Of a stretch of DNA of 64,000 nt, positions 36,983 to 45,378 are shown piece by piece. Under the pieces are notes generated by a model. That model worked only from the letters and a program-made list of their open reading frames with translations, did not search any database and had not been told where the DNA came from. Position numbers and translations under genes: made by a program. Position 1 is the first letter of the stretch, and each line of letters begins with the position of its first letter. Location of the stretch: positions 62,001-126,000 of the forward strand of contig NZ_JAHCDK010000002.1 in NCBI RefSeq assembly GCF_018413465.1. Direction: 5' to 3'. Source of the stretch: Flavobacterium sp. CYK-55. Its GTDB lineage: Bacteria; Bacteroidota; Bacteroidia; Flavobacteriales; Flavobacteriaceae.

Positions 36983-37822
36983 TTACTGATAGTGAAATGA
37001 AATCCCGGCAATCAAGAAATTTCTACCAAAAGCTTCAGTATTAGCATCGGCAGCATTATGGATGTAATTGACCCAAATCGGAACCGTAAATCGTTCGCCT
37101 ACACTCCATTCATGAGTTGCTTTGAAACTCAAATTTACAAGTGAAACTTTGTCATAATCACCTGCGGTGTAATATTCAGCTTGATTGTTTAAAACCGCCC
37201 CTATAGCAGCTTCAAGATTGAGGTATTCTGACCAAAAATCTTTTGAATACATAGCCTCAACATAAGTGGTGAAATTTTGTTTTGGGTTTTCACCTTGAGC
37301 ATTATATCGATAATCACTACCTGCTACGAGTGTACTTACTGTTAATTCAAGTGGAATTTCCCAGTGGTTCAAATCAAAAAAAACACTGGCATCAACTGTT
37401 TTTACACTATCAGGTCCATAATTAAAGAAACTATTGTCAACACCTTCAACTTGAGAAACAGTAGGCCAATAATAATCCCAAATTTCAACCGAAAGCCAAG
37501 GTGCAAACTCATATTTTATATTGAAATCAATTTCTTGGTAACCACGTGGTCCGGTCATTTGATCTGAATAAAAGTAACGAGACTCAAAATTAGTCGTAGC
37601 CCAAAATCCAATTGAAAATTTATCGTTTAAATGATAATCAATCGTAGGTTGAACAACAAAATAATCACCGCCCCATGATTGACCTCGCCAAATATATCTG
37701 CTTGCTATATCTAGATTAAATTCAAATTTTGAATTGGGTTTTGCCTGCTCGGTTGATTGGCTAAAAACCGAGGCTGCCATAAACAATGCAAAAATTAAAT
37801 GTCTCTTTTTTTTATCGATCAC
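36983..37822 (-). CDS. Outer membrane beta-barrel protein, putative porin-like
   Basis: Secreted protein of about 279 residues predicted to form an outer membrane barrel: alternating strands, many aromatics, and a last strand ending in FHYQ. SRYIWRGQSWGGDYFVVQPTIDY-type sequence near the N-terminus resembles the TorF/Gcw_chp group of putative porins. The start is uncertain. No ATG precedes the signal peptide; GTG at 37822 gives a good one (VIDKKKRHLIFALFMAAS, cleavage after VFSQ), while a TTG at 37849 adds nine charged residues. With the GTG, the gene overlaps the end of the upstream hybrid kinase by 11 bp, so translation is probably coupled. Confidence 0.8.
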   Translation of the reverse strand: MIDKKKRHLIFALFMAASVFSQSTEQAKPNSKFEFNLDIASRYIWRGQSWGGDYFVVQPTIDYHLNDKFSIGFWATTNFESRYFYSDQMTGPRGYQEIDFNIKYEFAPWLSVEIWDYYWPTVSQVEGVDNSFFNYGPDSVKTVDASVFFDLNHWEIPLELTVSTLVAGSDYRYNAQGENPKQNFTTYVEAMYSKDFWSEYLNLEAAIGAVLNNQAEYYTAGDYDKVSLVNLSFKATHEWSVGERFTVPIWVNYIHNAADANTEAFGRNFLIAGISFHYQ

Positions 37823-39920
37823 TTTTTTTGTTTTTCTGAACCTGATCAATCATTTCAAATAATTTCTCACGATTGATGGGTTTGGTTAAATATCCATAGA
37901 AACCAGCTTTTATTATTCGCTCTTCATCATCACTCGATGCATACGCGGTTTGAGCAACCACAAATAATTCCGGTCGAATGGCTTTGACTTTTTCAAGTGC
38001 CTCAAAACCATTCATAATTGGCATTTTAATATCCATCAACACCAAGTCAATATCTGGGTTACTCAATGAAATTTCAACCGCTTCAAGGCCATTTACCGCT
38101 CTGATGATATTGTAATTTCGGGATTGTATAATTTTTTGAAACAATAGATAGTTTATATTGTCATCTTCAGCTATGAGAATAGTAAACGATTCATGTTCAG
38201 AAGATTTTCGCGACTTAACTTGCTTGACCGAAATTTTTTGAACCTCGGCATACTGCAACGGAAGAGTAAATGAAAAAACAGAACCTTTACCTACTTCAGA
38301 TTTAAGCGTAATGCTTCCGCCCATCATTTCAACATAGGCTTTGGTAATGGCCAAGCCCAAACCTAAACCACCAGCTTTAATAGAAGCATCATTCTCAATT
38401 CGTTTAAATCGATCAAAAATAAATTTCTGATTTTTAGCATCAATTCCAGGCCCGGTATCATAGATTGAAAAAGTAATCTCTTTTTTCTTTTCATTGAGCT
38501 CATATCCAAATGACACAGTTCCTTTATCGGTATATTTAATACCATTAGTAACCAAATTGACCAACACTTGTTTTAGTTTGGTTTCATCAGCAATAATCGG
38601 ATAAGCTAGTGGTTCTCGGGCCGGAACAACAAAAAGCTCAACGGGCTTGCTTTTGGGAATGGTAATGCGAATAGTCTCAAACAACTCGCTCACACAAGCT
38701 TCTAAATCAACTTGGGTGTAATTGGGCGAAATTTGATTCGAATCTATCTTCGACATTTCAATTAAATCATCAATAATTGATACTAAATTTCTACCACTTT
38801 TATCAACTACTTTCAGATACTCAATTTGCTCTTCGTGGCTGAGTTGGGTATTGAGCATCAAATCAGTAAAGCCGCTAATAGCATTCATCGGCGTTCTAAT
38901 TTCATGCGAAAGATTTGCCAAAAAAGATGATTTAAGCCGATCGCTTTCTTCAGCTTTAAGTTTAGCTTTGACCAACTCATGCTTTTGATTATTGTTTTCT
39001 TCAAACAAAAGCCCAATGTTTCTAAACTCGCCGTGGGTAGCTTTGAGCTCTTTGATAGCCTTTTTCTCACCGGTTTCCAGAACTCTTGTTATCAAATCAA
39101 GCGGTAGATAGACCAGCTTTCGCGTATAAAATAAGTTAATGAGTATGTTGATTACAAAGACCACAAAAATCAAATACAGAATATTGAGCATGTTTTCAAA
39201 ATAGACATCAAATTTGCGTTCAAATTGCAATCTGCCGATGGTATTTCCAAAACAATCTTGCAAATTAACTGTGGCATAAATGGTGTGGTTTTCTTTTTTT
39301 ATAGCCCTATCTGTGTTGATAAACTTAATTTCTGAGGATGCTATCTTCTTAAAATCACCAATATATTTTTGGTCGATAAGACGAGCAACAAAAAAATAAC
39401 CGAAAGGCTTAGTTTTTTTCTTGAGCGGATCATCAGACGGATGTATCGATGCTCCTGTTACTTCGGCTAAACCTTCGGGAATAAGCAAATAAAACTTTGT
39501 CGTTCCAACTTCGTCTAGTTGATCCATGGCATGCTTAGGAATGATATCCGTCGAGCGCAATCGGTTTGACGCGGTTCTAATCATGAACTTTTTGTTGACA
39601 TCATAAGTTCCTAAATAATCGGCTTTATAAATATCTAATTCATTTCCGATGGTTTCATCATACCATTGTTTGTTATTTGTTTTGGTAAAATCAACAAACT
39701 CATCCCAATTGGTATCGTTATTCAAAGCTACTTGAATGGGTTTGTTCTCAAGTTGAAGCAACATGTTTACCTCATTGTTATATTGGAATTCTGTACTGGT
39801 ATACACTTGTTTTTCAACTTGTTTGGTATAATAATACAACGAAAAATACAACAATATAAAAAAGATACTCGAAGAGAATATGAGTAGTAATATTTTGGGA
39901 TAAGTGTTTTTAAGTTTCAT
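37812..39920 (-). CDS. CHASE4-domain hybrid sensor histidine kinase/response regulator
   Basis: Membrane-bound hybrid sensor of 702 residues. A transmembrane helix (about 9-29), a periplasmic CHASE4-like sensing domain (about 40-235; NDTNWDEFVDFT, YFFVARLID) and a second helix (about 243-265) precede a linker and coiled coil. The dimerisation domain has H339 in LSHEIRTPMNA. The ATPase domain has NLVTNGIKYT, DTGPGID and GLGLGLAITK. The C-terminal receiver (about 580-695) has D630 in VLMDIKMPIMNG and the lysine in LTKPIN. The outer membrane protein gene overlaps its end, so the pair may be one unit. The signal sensed is unknown. Confidence 0.94.
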   Translation of the reverse strand: MKLKNTYPKILLLIFSSSIFFILLYFSLYYYTKQVEKQVYTSTEFQYNNEVNMLLQLENKPIQVALNNDTNWDEFVDFTKTNNKQWYDETIGNELDIYKADYLGTYDVNKKFMIRTASNRLRSTDIIPKHAMDQLDEVGTTKFYLLIPEGLAEVTGASIHPSDDPLKKKTKPFGYFFVARLIDQKYIGDFKKIASSEIKFINTDRAIKKENHTIYATVNLQDCFGNTIGRLQFERKFDVYFENMLNILYLIFVVFVINILINLFYTRKLVYLPLDLITRVLETGEKKAIKELKATHGEFRNIGLLFEENNNQKHELVKAKLKAEESDRLKSSFLANLSHEIRTPMNAISGFTDLMLNTQLSHEEQIEYLKVVDKSGRNLVSIIDDLIEMSKIDSNQISPNYTQVDLEACVSELFETIRITIPKSKPVELFVVPAREPLAYPIIADETKLKQVLVNLVTNGIKYTDKGTVSFGYELNEKKKEITFSIYDTGPGIDAKNQKFIFDRFKRIENDASIKAGGLGLGLAITKAYVEMMGGSITLKSEVGKGSVFSFTLPLQYAEVQKISVKQVKSRKSSEHESFTILIAEDDNINYLLFQKIIQSRNYNIIRAVNGLEAVEISLSNPDIDLVLMDIKMPIMNGFEALEKVKAIRPELFVVAQTAYASSDDEERIIKAGFYGYLTKPINREKLFEMIDQVQKNKKSDR

Positions 39921-40074: not shown

Positions 40075-40479
40075 TTAGATAACTGTACCTTTAAAAGTTA
40101 GAACTTTTGGGGCGCTGTCAGCGTTGGTTGTTACCGTTACTGTTTTTGAAAAAGCACCTTTATTGGCTGCGTTGTAGGTTGCAACAATGGTTGCAGTTGA
40201 TCCGGGTTGAATAGGAGTTTTAGTGTAATCGGTAGCGGTACAGCCACATGAAGCCTTAACGTCCGTAATGAGCACAGGTGTTTTGCCAGTGTTTTTAAAC
40301 TCAAACGTGACTTTTTTGGGCTGATTATGAGGAATTTCACCCAAGTCAATTGATTCACTTTTCCATACAACTGATGATACCAAATTGACTTTTACCATTG
40401 AAGGTTTAACCTCAGGAACTACATTGAATGACATTAAACCAAAGGCAAACGCCAAAACCGAAATTTGAATAGTTTTCAT
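40075..40479 (-). CDS. DUF1573 domain secreted protein
   Basis: Exported protein of 134 residues in the DUF1573 family, common and often multicopy in Bacteroidetes, of unknown function. The signal peptide is MKTIQISVLAFAFGLMSFNVV. The immunoglobulin-like domain (about 38-134) shows the family pattern: IDLGEIPHNQPKKVTFEFKNTG, KTPVLITDVKASCGCTATDYT with a conserved CGC, and a PGSTATIVATYN strand. The CGC pair might bind a ligand or metal, which is not known. It has its own -7 box (40520-40527), divergent from the kinase/OmpR-type operon across a shared 167-bp region. Confidence 0.9.
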   Translation of the reverse strand: MKTIQISVLAFAFGLMSFNVVPEVKPSMVKVNLVSSVVWKSESIDLGEIPHNQPKKVTFEFKNTGKTPVLITDVKASCGCTATDYTKTPIQPGSTATIVATYNAANKGAFSKTVTVTTNADSAPKVLTFKGTVI

Positions 40480-40519
40480 AATATTTGTTTTTAAAGGTTG
40501 ATTTATTTTTTGTTCGAGT

Positions 40520-40527
40520 CAAAAGTA
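40520..40527 (-). promoter_or_regulatory. -7 box of the DUF1573 gene
   Basis: TACTTTTG on the minus strand, 41 bp before the ATG. The tandem-repeat array at 40550-40592 lies just upstream of it. Confidence 0.55.
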
Positions 40528-40549
40528 GTTGGGTAATTATTGAGCCACT

Positions 40550-40592
40550 GTTAATCGGTTTCTAACGTTTGTTAATGAGTTGTTAACCGATT
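40550..40592. promoter_or_regulatory. Candidate OmpR-type operator: four tandem 10-11 bp repeats
   Basis: GTTAATCGGTT, TCTAACGTTT, GTTAATGAGTT and GTTAACCGATT follow one another without gaps. Consecutive direct repeats with a helical-turn period are the usual target of OmpR/PhoB-type regulators. The array sits between the divergent DUF1573 gene and the kinase/OmpR-type pair, so it could control both. Confidence 0.55.
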
Positions 40593-40646
40593 TTTGACTT
40601 AGAATTTTTGACTAATATTACACCATTCTAAAAAGAATCGCTTCAA

Positions 40647-41909
40647 GTGAAAATCAACAGACTCAACAGCATCATTGTACTCGGACTGATTGCCATCATC
40701 GGCATCTTGATCGCACAGCTTTTGTGGACCAAACAAGCCTTTAATCTTGAAGAAAAAAAATTCAGTCAAAAGACGCACATCGCTTTGCTGGAAGTAGCCA
40801 AAAAACTCTATGAAGGCACCAACCGCGAATTACCCGCCGAAAATCCGGTACAGAAAATCTCGAATGATTATTACATCGTCAACATAGACAACGACTTTGA
40901 ACCTCAAATTCTGGATTATTACCTCAAAAACGAATTTGAAAAAGTCAACATCGGAACCGATTATGAATACGCCATGTACAACTGCCAAAGCGATGAAATG
41001 GTGTATGGAAATTACGTCTCGGCTTCAAAAACCGCCGATAAAAACCATTCGGTGTATTTTCCGAAGCACAAAAATTTGGTGTATTATTTTGCCGTGCGAT
41101 TCCCGAATGAAACCAGTTATTTGTTTCGATCGCTCAAATTTTGGTTGGCTTTATCCGGCGGAATCATCGTGATTTTGCTCGTATATGTGTTTTCGATTTT
41201 GACGATTATGCAACAAAAAAAATACTCTGAATTGCAGCGCGACTTCATCAATAATATGACGCATGAATTCAAAACTCCGCTGTCATCCATCTTGATTGCT
41301 TCAAATTTTCTCAAACAACAAAACGTCATTCAAGCCGACGAAAAGCTTGAAAAATACACCGAAATCATCATCGCGCAAAGCAAAAAACTCAACGCTCATA
41401 TTGAAACGATTCTCAACAGCGCCAAATCAGACAACGGGCCTTTGGTATTGAACAAAACTACGGTTGATTTGATGGCATTGTTGCGGGATGTGATAGAAAA
41501 TATTCAGCTCAAATATCCGCAAAGTCACATTAAAACTGAAGCGCCCGACAGCCATGTTTTGCTTGAAGCCGATGCTTTTCACCTCACCAATATTTGTTAT
41601 AATTTGCTGGACAACGCTATTAAATATTGCGAAAAAACACCTGAAATTACGGTAAAAATTAATCAGAAATCCAATCAAATTAAATTAGATTTTATAGACA
41701 ATGGAATCGGAATTTCTAATAAAAACCTTCCGTTTATCTTTGATAAATTCTACCGAATTTCAAGCATCAAAAGCAATGAAGTCAATGGTTTTGGTTTAGG
41801 ATTGTACTATGTCAAAAAAATCTGCACGTTGCACCATTGGAAAATTTCAGCTCAAAGCAATACAAATGGAACAACAATTACCATTTTAATTCCTGCTCAT
41901 CATGGCTAA
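40647..41909 (+). CDS. Two-component sensor histidine kinase
   Basis: Inner membrane sensor kinase of 420 residues. The start is GTG at 40647, directly before MKINRLN-like sequence and the first membrane helix (about 7-27). A periplasmic domain (about 30-165) and a second helix (about 168-190) follow. The phospho-acceptor is H206 in NNMTHEFKTPLSS. The ATPase domain has NLLDNAIKYCE, DNGIGIS, FDKFYR and GFGLGLYYVK. Its stop overlaps the response regulator start by 8 bp. This is an EnvZ/PhoR-like arrangement, with an operator-like repeat array about 55 bp upstream. Confidence 0.95.
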   Translation: MKINRLNSIIVLGLIAIIGILIAQLLWTKQAFNLEEKKFSQKTHIALLEVAKKLYEGTNRELPAENPVQKISNDYYIVNIDNDFEPQILDYYLKNEFEKVNIGTDYEYAMYNCQSDEMVYGNYVSASKTADKNHSVYFPKHKNLVYYFAVRFPNETSYLFRSLKFWLALSGGIIVILLVYVFSILTIMQQKKYSELQRDFINNMTHEFKTPLSSILIASNFLKQQNVIQADEKLEKYTEIIIAQSKKLNAHIETILNSAKSDNGPLVLNKTTVDLMALLRDVIENIQLKYPQSHIKTEAPDSHVLLEADAFHLTNICYNLLDNAIKYCEKTPEITVKINQKSNQIKLDFIDNGIGISNKNLPFIFDKFYRISSIKSNEVNGFGLGLYYVKKICTLHHWKISAQSNTNGTTITILIPAHHG

Positions 41910-42594
41910 ATGTAAAATTCTCTATGCCGAAGACGACCAAACCCTCGCCTTTTTAACCCAAGATAATTTGGAACAAAATGGCTATGAAGTGGTGCATTGT
42001 TCTGATGGAATTTTGGCCTTAGAAGCTTTTAAAAAAGAGGCTTTTGACATTGCAATTCTCGATATTATGCTGCCCAAAATGGATGGTTTTGAATTGGCTT
42101 CTGAAATCAGAAAACGCAATACTGAGGTTCCACTGATTTTTCTATCGGCCAAAACGCTCAAAGAAGATCGCATCAAAGGTTTGCGTTTGGGCGCCGATGA
42201 TTATTTGGTGAAGCCTTTTAGCATTGAAGAATTGATGCTCAAAATTGACATTTTCTTAAAGCGTTCTCAAAAAAACACTACGCCATCAACCAAAACATGT
42301 AACATCGGAACATTTGAATTTGATCCGCAGAATTATGTGCTCATCCGCAATGGCGAAAAAACCAAACTTACCCAACGCGAATCTGAATTGTTGCAGTTTT
42401 TTATTGAACATCAAAATACGGCGCTCAAACGCGAGTTCATTCTCAAATCAATTTGGGGCGATGACGATTATTTTATGGGAAGAAGTCTGGATGTTTTCAT
42501 TTCAAAGCTCCGAAAAATACTGGCCGCCGATACTTCACTTAGCATTGAGAACCTACATGGAATTGGGTTTCGATTTACGGTAAAATCTGCCTAA
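41902..42594 (+). CDS. OmpR family response regulator
   Basis: DNA-binding response regulator of 230 residues. The receiver (1-120) has acidic residues in YAEDDQT, D54 in AILDIMLPKMDG, a conserved Ser in FLSAKT and the lysine in YLVKPFS. The winged-helix domain (about 133-228) has LTQRESELLQFF, REFILKSIWGDDDYF and RSLDVFISKLRKIL, ending with the IENLHGIGFRF motif. It is co-transcribed and translationally coupled with the kinase upstream. Autoregulation through the repeats at 40550-40592 is likely but inferred. Confidence 0.96.
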   Translation: MAKCKILYAEDDQTLAFLTQDNLEQNGYEVVHCSDGILALEAFKKEAFDIAILDIMLPKMDGFELASEIRKRNTEVPLIFLSAKTLKEDRIKGLRLGADDYLVKPFSIEELMLKIDIFLKRSQKNTTPSTKTCNIGTFEFDPQNYVLIRNGEKTKLTQRESELLQFFIEHQNTALKREFILKSIWGDDDYFMGRSLDVFISKLRKILAADTSLSIENLHGIGFRFTVKSA

Positions 42595-42691: not shown

Positions 42692-44614
42692 ATGAACTCA
42701 AGGAAATTTTTCGCTTTTACTCTATTTTTGCTTTGGAGCTTTTTGGGTTTTGCTTCTGATATTAATAATCGCCCGAGCATCTCAACGGCAATTGACACTA
42801 CTCAAGTAAACGCACTCAATTTAAAAGCTGACGCGCTCAAAGAAATCAATCCGGATTCTAGTTTATATTTCTGTAAAAAAGCTGCGGCTTGGTCAAACAA
42901 ACTCAAATTCAAGCCCGGATTGGCACAAGCTGCCATTAATGCCGGAAACGCATACATCATTCTGAGTCAGTACAAAGAAGCGTTGGGTGAATTTACCAAA
43001 GCCCAGCAAATCTTTACGTCGCTGGTTCAAGAATCATCTTCAAAAACTTTTAAAACCGGTTTGGCCCGCGCTTATGCGAGTATGGCAGTGGTGCATTCAG
43101 AAATTAACAACTATCCGATGGCTCTTGATTTTTATGGAAAAGCGCTCAAAATTTACCTCGAAACCCATCAAAAAAATTACTGCGCCAAAGTGTACAACAA
43201 TATTGGCATTGTATATAAATCGCAAAAAAGATATCCGCACGCGCTTGAATATTTGCAAAAAGCCTTGATGCTTCAAAAAGAAACCAACGATGCCTCGATG
43301 CCCACCACTTTGACCAATATGGGCGCGATTGCTTTTGAACAACAAAACTACCAGTTGGCTGAAAATTATTATCATCAAGCCGAACAAGCTTTTGAAAAAA
43401 TAGGTGCATCGAGAAACAACGCTTTGTTATTGACTTATTGGGGCGATTTATGCTTGCAGAAAAAAGATCACACACAAGCCAATAATTATTATCAAAAAGC
43501 ATTGGCCGGTTATCAATCGATGCAAAATGATTTTGGAGCCGCATTGGTTTGGTACAAAATAAGCGGATTGCAATTTGAATTGGGGCAATATTTGGCCGCT
43601 TTGACCTCGGCTGAAAAATCTTTGCAATTGGCTCAATCTATTGGAACGCAAGACCAAATTATTGAGGATGAAAAACGCATCAGCGAAATATACGCGGCCC
43701 TCAACCAACCGCAAGCTGAACTGATACATTACAAAAAATACATTGCTGCCCGCGATGCGCTGAACAATTGGGAAAACAACAAAAAGTTTTTGCGCGCCGA
43801 AATGAACTTTGAATATCAGAAAAAAGAGGCGCTCATTCACGAAGAAAACAAACGCCAAAATCAGTTGTTTTGGTTTGTGGTTATTGGCGGATTATTGCTG
43901 ATCGGGCTGGTTTTTGTAACCTACAACCGACTGCAAATCAAACGCCGATTGACCTTGCAAAAAGAAGTGGCCGAATACGAACAAAAAGCGTTGCATTTGC
44001 AAATGAATCCGCATTTTGTGTTTAATTGTTTGAGTTCAATTTCAAGTTTTATCTTGCAAAACGGAACCGATTCGGCCATTAAATATTTGGCTAAATTTTC
44101 TAAGCTTATGCGCTTAACCCTTGAATATTCTAAGGCTTCGCTGATTCCGGTGCACAAAGAAATTGAAAGTTTGCAGCATTATCTTGAACTCGAACAACTG
44201 CGCTTTCACAAAAAGTTTGATTTTACCATTCAAGCTTCGACCAGTGTTGAAGACGATATGGCTTTGCCTCCGCTGCTGATTCAGCCGTTTGTTGAAAATG
44301 CCATTTTGCACGGAATTGTTCCGAAAGAAACCAACGGAAACATCGACATTGTTTTTAAAGTAGAGCAAGAACAATTGGTTTGCATCATCACCGATGACGG
44401 CATCGGGCTGAGTAAATCAATGGCCATCAAAGAAAACTCTGTAAAAGCGCATGAATCAATGGCACTCGAGATTACCAAAAAGCGTCTGGAAATGATCGAA
44501 TCTACCACGCATCAAAAAGCGCGTGTGCTCATTGAAGAAGCCAGCGATCAGCCATCAGGAACACAAGTAACACTGTATTTGCCCATTCAATATTTAACCA
44601 ACCAAAACAACTAA
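42692..44614 (+). CDS. TPR-repeat sensor histidine kinase, LytS-like (His_kinase) family
   Basis: Sensor of 640 residues. A signal-like N-terminus (FFAFTLFLLWSFLGFAS) exports a periplasmic region of tetratricopeptide repeats (about 45-365; motifs such as ALGEFTKAQQIF, AKVYNNIGIVYKSQ, ALEYLQKALMLQK). A transmembrane helix follows (about 392-412, FWFVVIGGLLLIGLVFV), then a coiled coil. The kinase is of the PF06580 type, with the phospho-acceptor H441 in QMNPHFVFNCLSS. The ATPase part has IQPFVENAILHGI and DDGIGLS. The LytTR regulator starts 2 bp later and is the obvious partner. The TPR domain suggests sensing of a protein or peptide in the envelope. Confidence 0.95.
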   Translation: MNSRKFFAFTLFLLWSFLGFASDINNRPSISTAIDTTQVNALNLKADALKEINPDSSLYFCKKAAAWSNKLKFKPGLAQAAINAGNAYIILSQYKEALGEFTKAQQIFTSLVQESSSKTFKTGLARAYASMAVVHSEINNYPMALDFYGKALKIYLETHQKNYCAKVYNNIGIVYKSQKRYPHALEYLQKALMLQKETNDASMPTTLTNMGAIAFEQQNYQLAENYYHQAEQAFEKIGASRNNALLLTYWGDLCLQKKDHTQANNYYQKALAGYQSMQNDFGAALVWYKISGLQFELGQYLAALTSAEKSLQLAQSIGTQDQIIEDEKRISEIYAALNQPQAELIHYKKYIAARDALNNWENNKKFLRAEMNFEYQKKEALIHEENKRQNQLFWFVVIGGLLLIGLVFVTYNRLQIKRRLTLQKEVAEYEQKALHLQMNPHFVFNCLSSISSFILQNGTDSAIKYLAKFSKLMRLTLEYSKASLIPVHKEIESLQHYLELEQLRFHKKFDFTIQASTSVEDDMALPPLLIQPFVENAILHGIVPKETNGNIDIVFKVEQEQLVCIITDDGIGLSKSMAIKENSVKAHESMALEITKKRLEMIESTTHQKARVLIEEASDQPSGTQVTLYLPIQYLTNQNN

Positions 44615-44616
44615 GC

Positions 44617-45378
44617 ATGATTACCGCTGTACTCATAGACGACGACCAACATTTGCGCGCAGGCATGAAAAGTATGCTCAAAATGTACGCCTCTGACATT
44701 AAAATTGTAGCCGAAGCCGAAAGTGTTTTATCGGGCAAAGAAGTCATTGAACAATGGGAACCTCAGGTGATTTTTTTAGATATTCATTTGGCCGACGGAA
44801 CCGGTTTTGACATTTTAGAGCAACTCAAAGCGGCGCAAAACAAACTCAGTTCACACATTGTATTCATTACCGCCCACGAGCAATATGCGCTCAAAGCTTT
44901 TAAATTCAGCGCGCTTGATTTCTTGCTCAAACCCGTCGACCCTGAAGATTTGCAGCAAGCTATGAGCAAAGTCAAAGTGGCGCTTGAGAAAAACAGCACT
45001 TTTGAGCACATTGATTTGCTCATTGAAAACATTCGTAAAAAAACAGATCACTTCAAACGCATTGCGCTATCCACTTCAGAAGGCATTCATTTATTTGAAA
45101 TTAGTGACATTATTCGCTGTGAATCAATGGACAATTACACCAAGTTTTTCATCAAAAACCAAAAGCCGATGCTGATTTCAAAAACGCTCAAAGAATATGA
45201 AGAACTTTTGGCACAACACGGTTTTGAACGCGTGCATCAGTCACATCTAATCAATTTGGCTTATCTGAAATCATACATCAAAACCGATGGCGGTTATGTG
45301 CTCATGGCCGATGATTCGCGGATTCCGATTGCCCAACGCAAAAAAGAACGATTAAACGAATTGCTCAAATCAATTTAA
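44617..45378 (+). CDS. LytTR family response regulator
   Basis: DNA-binding response regulator of 253 residues. The receiver has IDDDQHLR at the N-terminus, D55 in IFLDIHLADGTG, a conserved Thr in FITAHE and the lysine in LLKPVDPED. The LytTR domain (about 150-250) has IIRCESMDNYTKFF, the MLISKTLKEYEELL strand-helix, FERVHQSHLINLAYLK and the basic tail RIPIAQRKKERL. It pairs with the TPR kinase upstream. The secreted leucine-rich protein gene begins 20 bp downstream with no terminator, so it is probably transcribed with the sensor pair. Confidence 0.96.
   Translation: MITAVLIDDDQHLRAGMKSMLKMYASDIKIVAEAESVLSGKEVIEQWEPQVIFLDIHLADGTGFDILEQLKAAQNKLSSHIVFITAHEQYALKAFKFSALDFLLKPVDPEDLQQAMSKVKVALEKNSTFEHIDLLIENIRKKTDHFKRIALSTSEGIHLFEISDIIRCESMDNYTKFFIKNQKPMLISKTLKEYEELLAQHGFERVHQSHLINLAYLKSYIKTDGGYVLMADDSRIPIAQRKKERLNELLKSI

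Follow-up and report, generated by a model that had tools for sequence, protein, structure and literature searches.

The window, i.e. the whole stretch of 64,000 nucleotides that was analysed, carries a set of tandem repeats at 40550-40592, inside the 167-bp gap (40480-40646) that separates a DUF1573 gene from a divergent sensor histidine kinase gene. The kinase ORF overlaps the ORF of a response regulator by 8 bp. The features of the locus, in order of position, are as follows.

40075-40479, minus strand: DUF1573 gene, 134 aa (PF07610, 3e-35), the presumed activated target.
40520-40527, minus strand: TACTTTTG, lying 22 bp from unit 1 as the −7 box of the DUF1573 promoter.
40550-40560, plus strand: unit 1, GTTAATCGGTT, half-site adjoining the DUF1573 promoter, assigned from its sequence; the full array is found at 70/73 kinase loci.
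40561-40570, plus strand: unit 2, TCTAACGTTT, 10 bp, a weak half-site with bases 4 and 5 (AA) kept in 68/68 and 66/68 loci.
40571-40581, plus strand: unit 3, GTTAATGAGTT, assigned from sequence and conservation.
40582-40592, plus strand: unit 4, GTTAACCGATT, with GTTAA at about −33 to −29 relative to where the kinase operon is predicted to start.
40603-40610, plus strand: AATTTTTG, 16 bp past unit 4 and with one mismatch to TAnnTTTG, which probably serves the kinase operon as its −7 box.
40613-40621, plus strand: TAATATTAC, conserved block that spans the start site predicted for the kinase operon.
40647-41909, plus strand: sensor histidine kinase, 420 aa, GTG start (HisKA, HATPase_c).
41902-42594, plus strand: OmpR/PhoB-type response regulator, 230 aa, RprY-like (Response_reg, Trans_reg_C), the presumed ligand of the array.

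This module is flanked by 37812-39920, which we take to be a hybrid-kinase-like gene, and by 42692-45378, presumably a sensor–regulator pair that is LytS/LytTR-like by appearance. The regulator at 41902-42594 matches PF00072 (2.3e-28) and PF00486 (7.2e-18), as is characteristic of OmpR/PhoB-type response regulators, and its top named model is NF051850 RprY at 257.3 bits, which lies under the curated cut-off of 370 and hence outside RprY proper. A second RprY-like kinase/regulator pair is present in the same genome. In Pfam, DUF1573 bears the name of a protein with unknown function, and the available text of PMC9312934 places it among selenoprotein families with a UGC motif.

The repeats had been described in a sequence-only reading as four gapless 11-bp units. 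On rereading 40550-40592 their sequence and coordinates proved correct, whereas the unit lengths are 11, 10, 11 and 11 bp, unit 2 being a 10-bp weak variant with TCTAA where the others have GTTAA (3/5 bases match). The half-sites thus start at 40550, 40561, 40571 and 40582, with a step of 21 bp from pair 1+2 to pair 3+4. Tandem direct half-sites at 10–11 bp, as seen here, are a feature of OmpR/PhoB-type operators, and units 3-4 constitute a GTTAAN6GTTAA box of the SaeR type, the sole such pair in the 64-kb window. The gap is AT-rich (28% GC), and Tandem Repeats Finder at a minimum score of 30 did not report the array at 40550-40592. Three-unit arrays appeared in 0/5000 dinucleotide shuffles of the gap and the GTTAA-N6-GTTAA pair in 15/5000; the shuffled 64-kb window contained a mean of 0.31 such pairs (100 shuffles) vs 1 in the real sequence. 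Copies of TTTTTGACT occur at 40591-40599 and 40605-40613. The second falls in a conserved block and the first outside any, which rules out both copies together as operator parts.

Conservation was followed in a sample of 150 genomes of the genus, where a kinase match at E<=1e-60 defined a kinase-positive genome and a genome was called kinase-negative if none of its scored candidates (12 at most) reached that threshold. A kinase match was found in 73/150 genomes (67/124 with completeness of 90% or more and contamination of 5% or less), and a divergent DUF1573 gene was present in 66/69 of the kinase loci read first and in 4/4 read later. Three exact GTTAA with matching spacing lie upstream of 70 of the 73 kinase genes, at 11-10-11 in 68 loci and 11-11-11 in 2, counts that overstate the number of events because related species are not independent. 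When the 73 upstream regions were each shuffled 20 times, the score of 15/15 was never attained, the top score being 14 in 2/1460. The 70 arrays were chosen by GTTAA score, ties being broken by a small weight on the AA of unit 2 and the TT before it, so the invariance of these columns stems partly from the selection itself. Alignment columns −1, 19, 20 and 31 were not used in picking, and among columns of this kind a T precedes unit 1 and TT precedes unit 3 in 68/68 loci. Unit 2 is a conserved weak half-site with AA at its end. A regulator search across the phylum added 14 loci of the same genus, with the array in 12 of the 13 that could be scored (in L295 the contig ends before the promoter). 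Conservation upstream of orthologous kinases, the lack of which had been named beforehand as evidence against the operator, is therefore observed, at 70/73.

The array is held at a fixed distance from a promoter on its DUF1573 side. In the available text of PMC6847099, promoters of F. johnsoniae are described as having a nearly invariant TAnnTTTG −7 box, a start 4–5 nt past the box and a weak −33 element. TAnnTTTG (CAAAnnTA on the plus strand) is located 22 bp (50 loci) or 21 bp (20 loci) from unit 1 in 70/70 array-bearing loci, whereas shuffled flanks place such a box at 21 or 22 bp in 2/1400. The −7 box is that of Bacteroidota sigma-A promoters; a TTTG-type −33 element is missing, as TTG is absent 16–23 bp upstream of the box in 70/70. 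By the 4–5 nt rule the DUF1573 start would lie at ∼40515, with the near edge of unit 1 at approximately −35. The same rule, as given in that text, would put the GTTAA of unit 4 at approximately −33 to −29 of the kinase-operon start. On this side the −7 box has 0 or 1 mismatch in 38/70 loci and is an exact TAnnTTTG in 16/70, while an exact TAATATTAC follows unit 4 at 26 or 27 bp in 43/73 loci. The spacing of 21–22 bp was discarded as a unique feature, conserved groups being seen by eye at ∼20, 26 and 32 bp also, among the matches listed.

Loci from which DUF1573 is missing serve as natural deletions. No divergent DUF1573 was detected at three of the 73 kinase loci (L086, L098 and L158): L098 and L158 have kept units 3-4 and lost unit 1, and L086 has kinase and regulator and no array. 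In L277/L310, a further locus of the genus that came from the phylum sample, DUF1573 is missing and the array consists of units 3-4 only. Unit 1 is thus missing in L086, L098, L158 and L310, and DUF1573 lies beside the kinase in none of them. The loss of unit 1 together with the retention of units 3-4 fits an assignment of unit 1 to DUF1573 and of units 3-4 to the kinase operon. These loci bear directly on whether the operator might be one-sided, controlling DUF1573 only, with its position before the kinase a by-product of the divergent layout. The strictness of the −7 spacing on the DUF1573 side (70/70) compared with the looseness on the kinase side (16/70 exact) would be expected of such an operator, but units 3-4 remain before the kinase in L098, L158 and L310, all without DUF1573, and TAATATTAC keeps its 26–27 bp distance in 43/73 loci, so that we regard one-sided control as unlikely. 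An OmpR/PhoB-type operator common to the divergent DUF1573 and kinase genes, as the sequence-only reading had proposed, is supported by the conservation of the array in 70/73 loci.

The module also occurs beyond the genus. A kinase search at 1e-60 that covered the family with 199 genomes from 198 genera returned the same genus only; the regulator search over 395 phylum genomes was more productive, with 75 places listed, of which 30 were made into loci, 29 were read and 20 upstream stretches were taken by choice. A single-sequence search of genome contigs returned mostly distant regulators, and among its ten loci (L001-L008, L066, L067) L002 carries the module, while L001, from a distant MAG (regulator 61%, kinase 51% identity), has neither DUF1573 nor the array. 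Altogether nine loci outside the genus have DUF1573 adjoining the kinase: four in a family of the same order (f2), three and one in two families of the same class (f8 and f10), and the MAG locus L002. The 11-10-11 array is present in 9/9 of these, with CAAA (the TTTG of the −7 box) 22 bp away in 9/9 and a complete TAnnTTTG in five (L305-L308, L323). Among the 20 chosen stretches (17 from outside the genus plus L310, L320 and L321 from within it; kinase ORF unlocated in L316 and L323), the array was found in 8/8 with DUF1573 and 0/12 without, a contrast that is partly one of orthology because the twelve may include several paralogous systems.

Genome-wide scans of the genus sample relate the array to this regulator. 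At no more than 2 mismatches, the 37-nt array was found at the kinase locus in 59/73 kinase-positive genomes vs 0/77 kinase-negative genomes. The other kinase-positive genomes comprise nine with the array at 3 mismatches and five with no match at the kinase locus, and the only matches among kinase-negative genomes, in five of them, have 3 mismatches. DUF1573 relatives at 1e-12 are present in 150/150 genomes, many of them probably paralogues, and the sole regulator relative in the eight kinase-negative genomes examined is a paralogue of 44–46% identity. Incomplete assemblies occur among the kinase-negative genomes, such as G050, where a DUF1573 match of 53% ends at a contig edge. Away from the kinase locus, TTGTTAAYGASTTGTTAA (at most 1 mismatch) had 29 occurrences among kinase-positive and 2 among kinase-negative genomes, vs 28 and 27 for the reversed-pattern control, which corrects for the difference between the genome sets and not for the absolute rate because it is commoner than TTGTTAAYGASTTGTTAA in kinase-negative genomes (27 vs 2). 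The tallies of 29 vs 2, of the reversed control and of 59/73 vs 0/77 were counted by hand, an overlapping pair in G032 being scored once.

Seven of the 29 TTGTTAAYGASTTGTTAA sites precede an exported protein of ∼230 aa without a Pfam match (two of the seven scanned), four precede a membrane protein resembling MauE/DoxX (two of these scanned), two a lipoprotein-like gene and one an unlinked DUF1573 gene; six fall inside reading frames, perhaps by chance (L207, L213, L223, L227, L230, L231). TAnnTTTG is 21–22 bp from the site at the four MauE/DoxX-like genes and at the unlinked DUF1573 gene, which is in G078 and has the box 21 bp off. At the seven loci of the ∼230-aa exported protein (L211, L212, L215, L217, L219, L221, L225), TGGCACAGC(A/T)ATTG stands between the GTTAA site and the gene in 7/7, an element that to our eye resembles the sigma-54 −24/−12 element. 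Judged on sequence, the form that accompanies the DUF1573-kinase-regulator system is closer to TTGTTAAYGASTTGTTAA than to GTTAAnnnnTT.

The GTTAA half-site itself is shared with other systems. The arrangement CAAAnnTA-N21/22-GTTAA-N6-GTTAA occurs in 90/150 genomes of the genus, both kinase-positive and kinase-negative, with 9 genomes for the reversed control. Among 30 such loci that were read (L246-L275), 17 precede a lipoprotein-like gene of ∼470 aa; four adjoin an ABC-type gene that often flanks the lipoprotein-like gene, with no called target of this sort or else inside a reading frame; six precede what we take to be a DUF47/PhoU-like protein; and the remaining three have other contexts. 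In the window genome, GTTAATGTTTGGTTAA stands before the kinase of the second RprY-like pair, at G000:C3:192269-192320 (L175, L192), where the kinase gene is preceded by GTTAATGTTTGGTTAAT...TGTTAAAATGTTAATTTTG; sequences closely similar to these upstream repeats occur in many genomes of the genus, among the matches listed. Tandem GTTAA with different spacers also marks other regulator-kinase pairs (L318-L322). The motif GTTAAnnnnTT, earlier put forward for the regulon, does not hold up as a specific or private one, since similar GTTAA pairs precede other genes, also in kinase-negative genomes, and other kinase genes. A two-unit scan of the window's own genome at one mismatch is uninformative because the reversed control gave 91 places vs 48. 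The earlier interpretation is thus right in kind, and its motif is too broad.

Several other occurrences of the repeat are recorded here as separate observations. A pair of the TTAACGCTCGATTAAC type, flanked on either side by TAnnTTTG (G012:C5:25265-25350 and similar places elsewhere), is a second possible divergent operator. A GTTAA pair precedes a MoxR-type ATPase gene in the window genome (L186, G000:C1:495363, one mismatch) and in two relatives (L228, whose gene was scanned, and L235), one of which is kinase-negative. At G000:C2:31396-31411 (L177, same genome), GTTAAAGAGTTGTTAA precedes a gene which presumably encodes a small heat-shock protein, given its resemblance. Finally, a four-unit GTTAA-like array (2 mismatches) lies between convergent genes in two genomes (L237, L238), in no obvious promoter position; we take one of these genes to resemble a multicopper oxidase.

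Since other regulators seem to use the GTTAA half-site, a paralogue could bind the array, and the 44%-identical RprY-like regulator (G000:C3) might be its main ligand and the true controller of DUF1573, with the adjacent regulator a bystander or partner. This would accord with the GTTAA repeats before the paralogue's own kinase gene, with GTTAA-N6-GTTAA at 21–22 bp from TAnnTTTG in genomes that have no counterpart of the window system, and with G039 (L244), where the DUF1573 gene retains GTTAATGAGATGTTAA upstream and the genome has no kinase match and no orthologous regulator that was found. Yet a regulator of 44–46% identity was found in 8/8 of the kinase-negative genomes tested, and the 37-nt array at no more than 2 mismatches is missing in 77/77, while the array accompanies the DUF1573-kinase-regulator set from family to family, which makes control by the paralogue more doubtful still than one-sided control. 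That the array is a chance or functionless simple AT-rich repeat, as the base composition of the gap and the silence of Tandem Repeats Finder might suggest, is contradicted by the shuffles and refuted by the conservation, and hardly merits credence.

We therefore consider it very likely, from the sequence evidence assembled here, that the array is the operator of the adjacent regulator (41902-42594), through which the regulator would activate DUF1573 and autoregulate its own operon. In many related bacteria the array has scarcely changed, probably because it serves to switch on the small exported DUF1573 protein. We infer a head-to-tail arrangement of two regulator dimers, in which the first would occupy units 1+2 (strong + weak) and the second units 3+4 (two strong), at a distance of 21 bp, equal to two helical turns. 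The regulator at unit 1, which reads TTAAC toward DUF1573, would replace the −33 contact and recruit RNA polymerase in the manner of class II activation by PhoB, so that DUF1573 would be transcribed; the lack of TTG near −33 in the DUF1573 promoter suggests that the regulator probably substitutes for this contact, and the position of unit 1 (approximately −35) is where a PhoB-like activator acts. As unit 4 covers the −33 region on the kinase side, autoregulation is likely, and the complex there could act on the kinase-regulator operon with either sign.

More tentatively, and as a possibility that we do not favour, GTTAA repeats at 11 bp may be a shared RprY/PhoB-like code in Bacteroidota, in which private signatures in the spacers and weak half-sites would insulate paralogues from one another, and an operator 21–22 bp upstream of TAnnTTTG would be the standard replacement for the −33 element. 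If true, this would supply a rule by which activated promoters could be read in Bacteroidota, whose promoters are unlike those of E. coli. The predicted operator with its fixed −7 spacing would in any case give a handle on RprY-like regulators and on DUF1573, i.e. a seat, a target gene and bases to mutate.

Among known systems, RprXY/RprY of Bacteroidales is the best-scoring named family for the window regulator, from which it differs in its score (257.3 bits vs 370) and in that its genome holds another RprY-like pair. RprY of P. gingivalis is reported, in the available text of PMC5706477, to bind its own promoter. PMC3646045 and PMC6032018, both on RprY, yielded nothing in their main texts on a motif, consensus, repeat, binding site or footprint. 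The transcription-start map of F. psychrophilum (PMC9723704) describes sigma-factor motifs, and TTAAC is absent from its main text. The open-access literature searched yielded no operator for the DUF1573-kinase system described here and no binding site for Bacteroidota RprY-like regulators. PhoB boxes in class II activation are tandem direct repeats of ∼11 bp that replace the upstream promoter element, and the array is alike in the first respect and probably in the second, whereas its sequence is another one and its geometry is set relative to a TAnnTTTG promoter. Staphylococcus aureus belongs to a different phylum than the window genome. Its SaeR binds GTTAAN6GTTAA and is autoinduced from its own P1, which has two such sites, according to the available text of PMC5083920. 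The half-site and the 6-bp gap are identical to those of units 3-4, both regulators have an OmpR-type DNA-binding domain, and the domain of the window regulator finds the SaeR domain 4u88 at 1.3e-6. However, SaeR chains are distant matches only (1.3e-6 to 8.7e-4), which places the array outside a SaeR regulon, and regulator and targets are others; the window differs further in its four half-sites at 11-10-11, the conserved weak second unit, the Bacteroidota −7 box and the divergent genes. The array is very likely an operator of a known kind, here with an unusually clean and conserved architecture.
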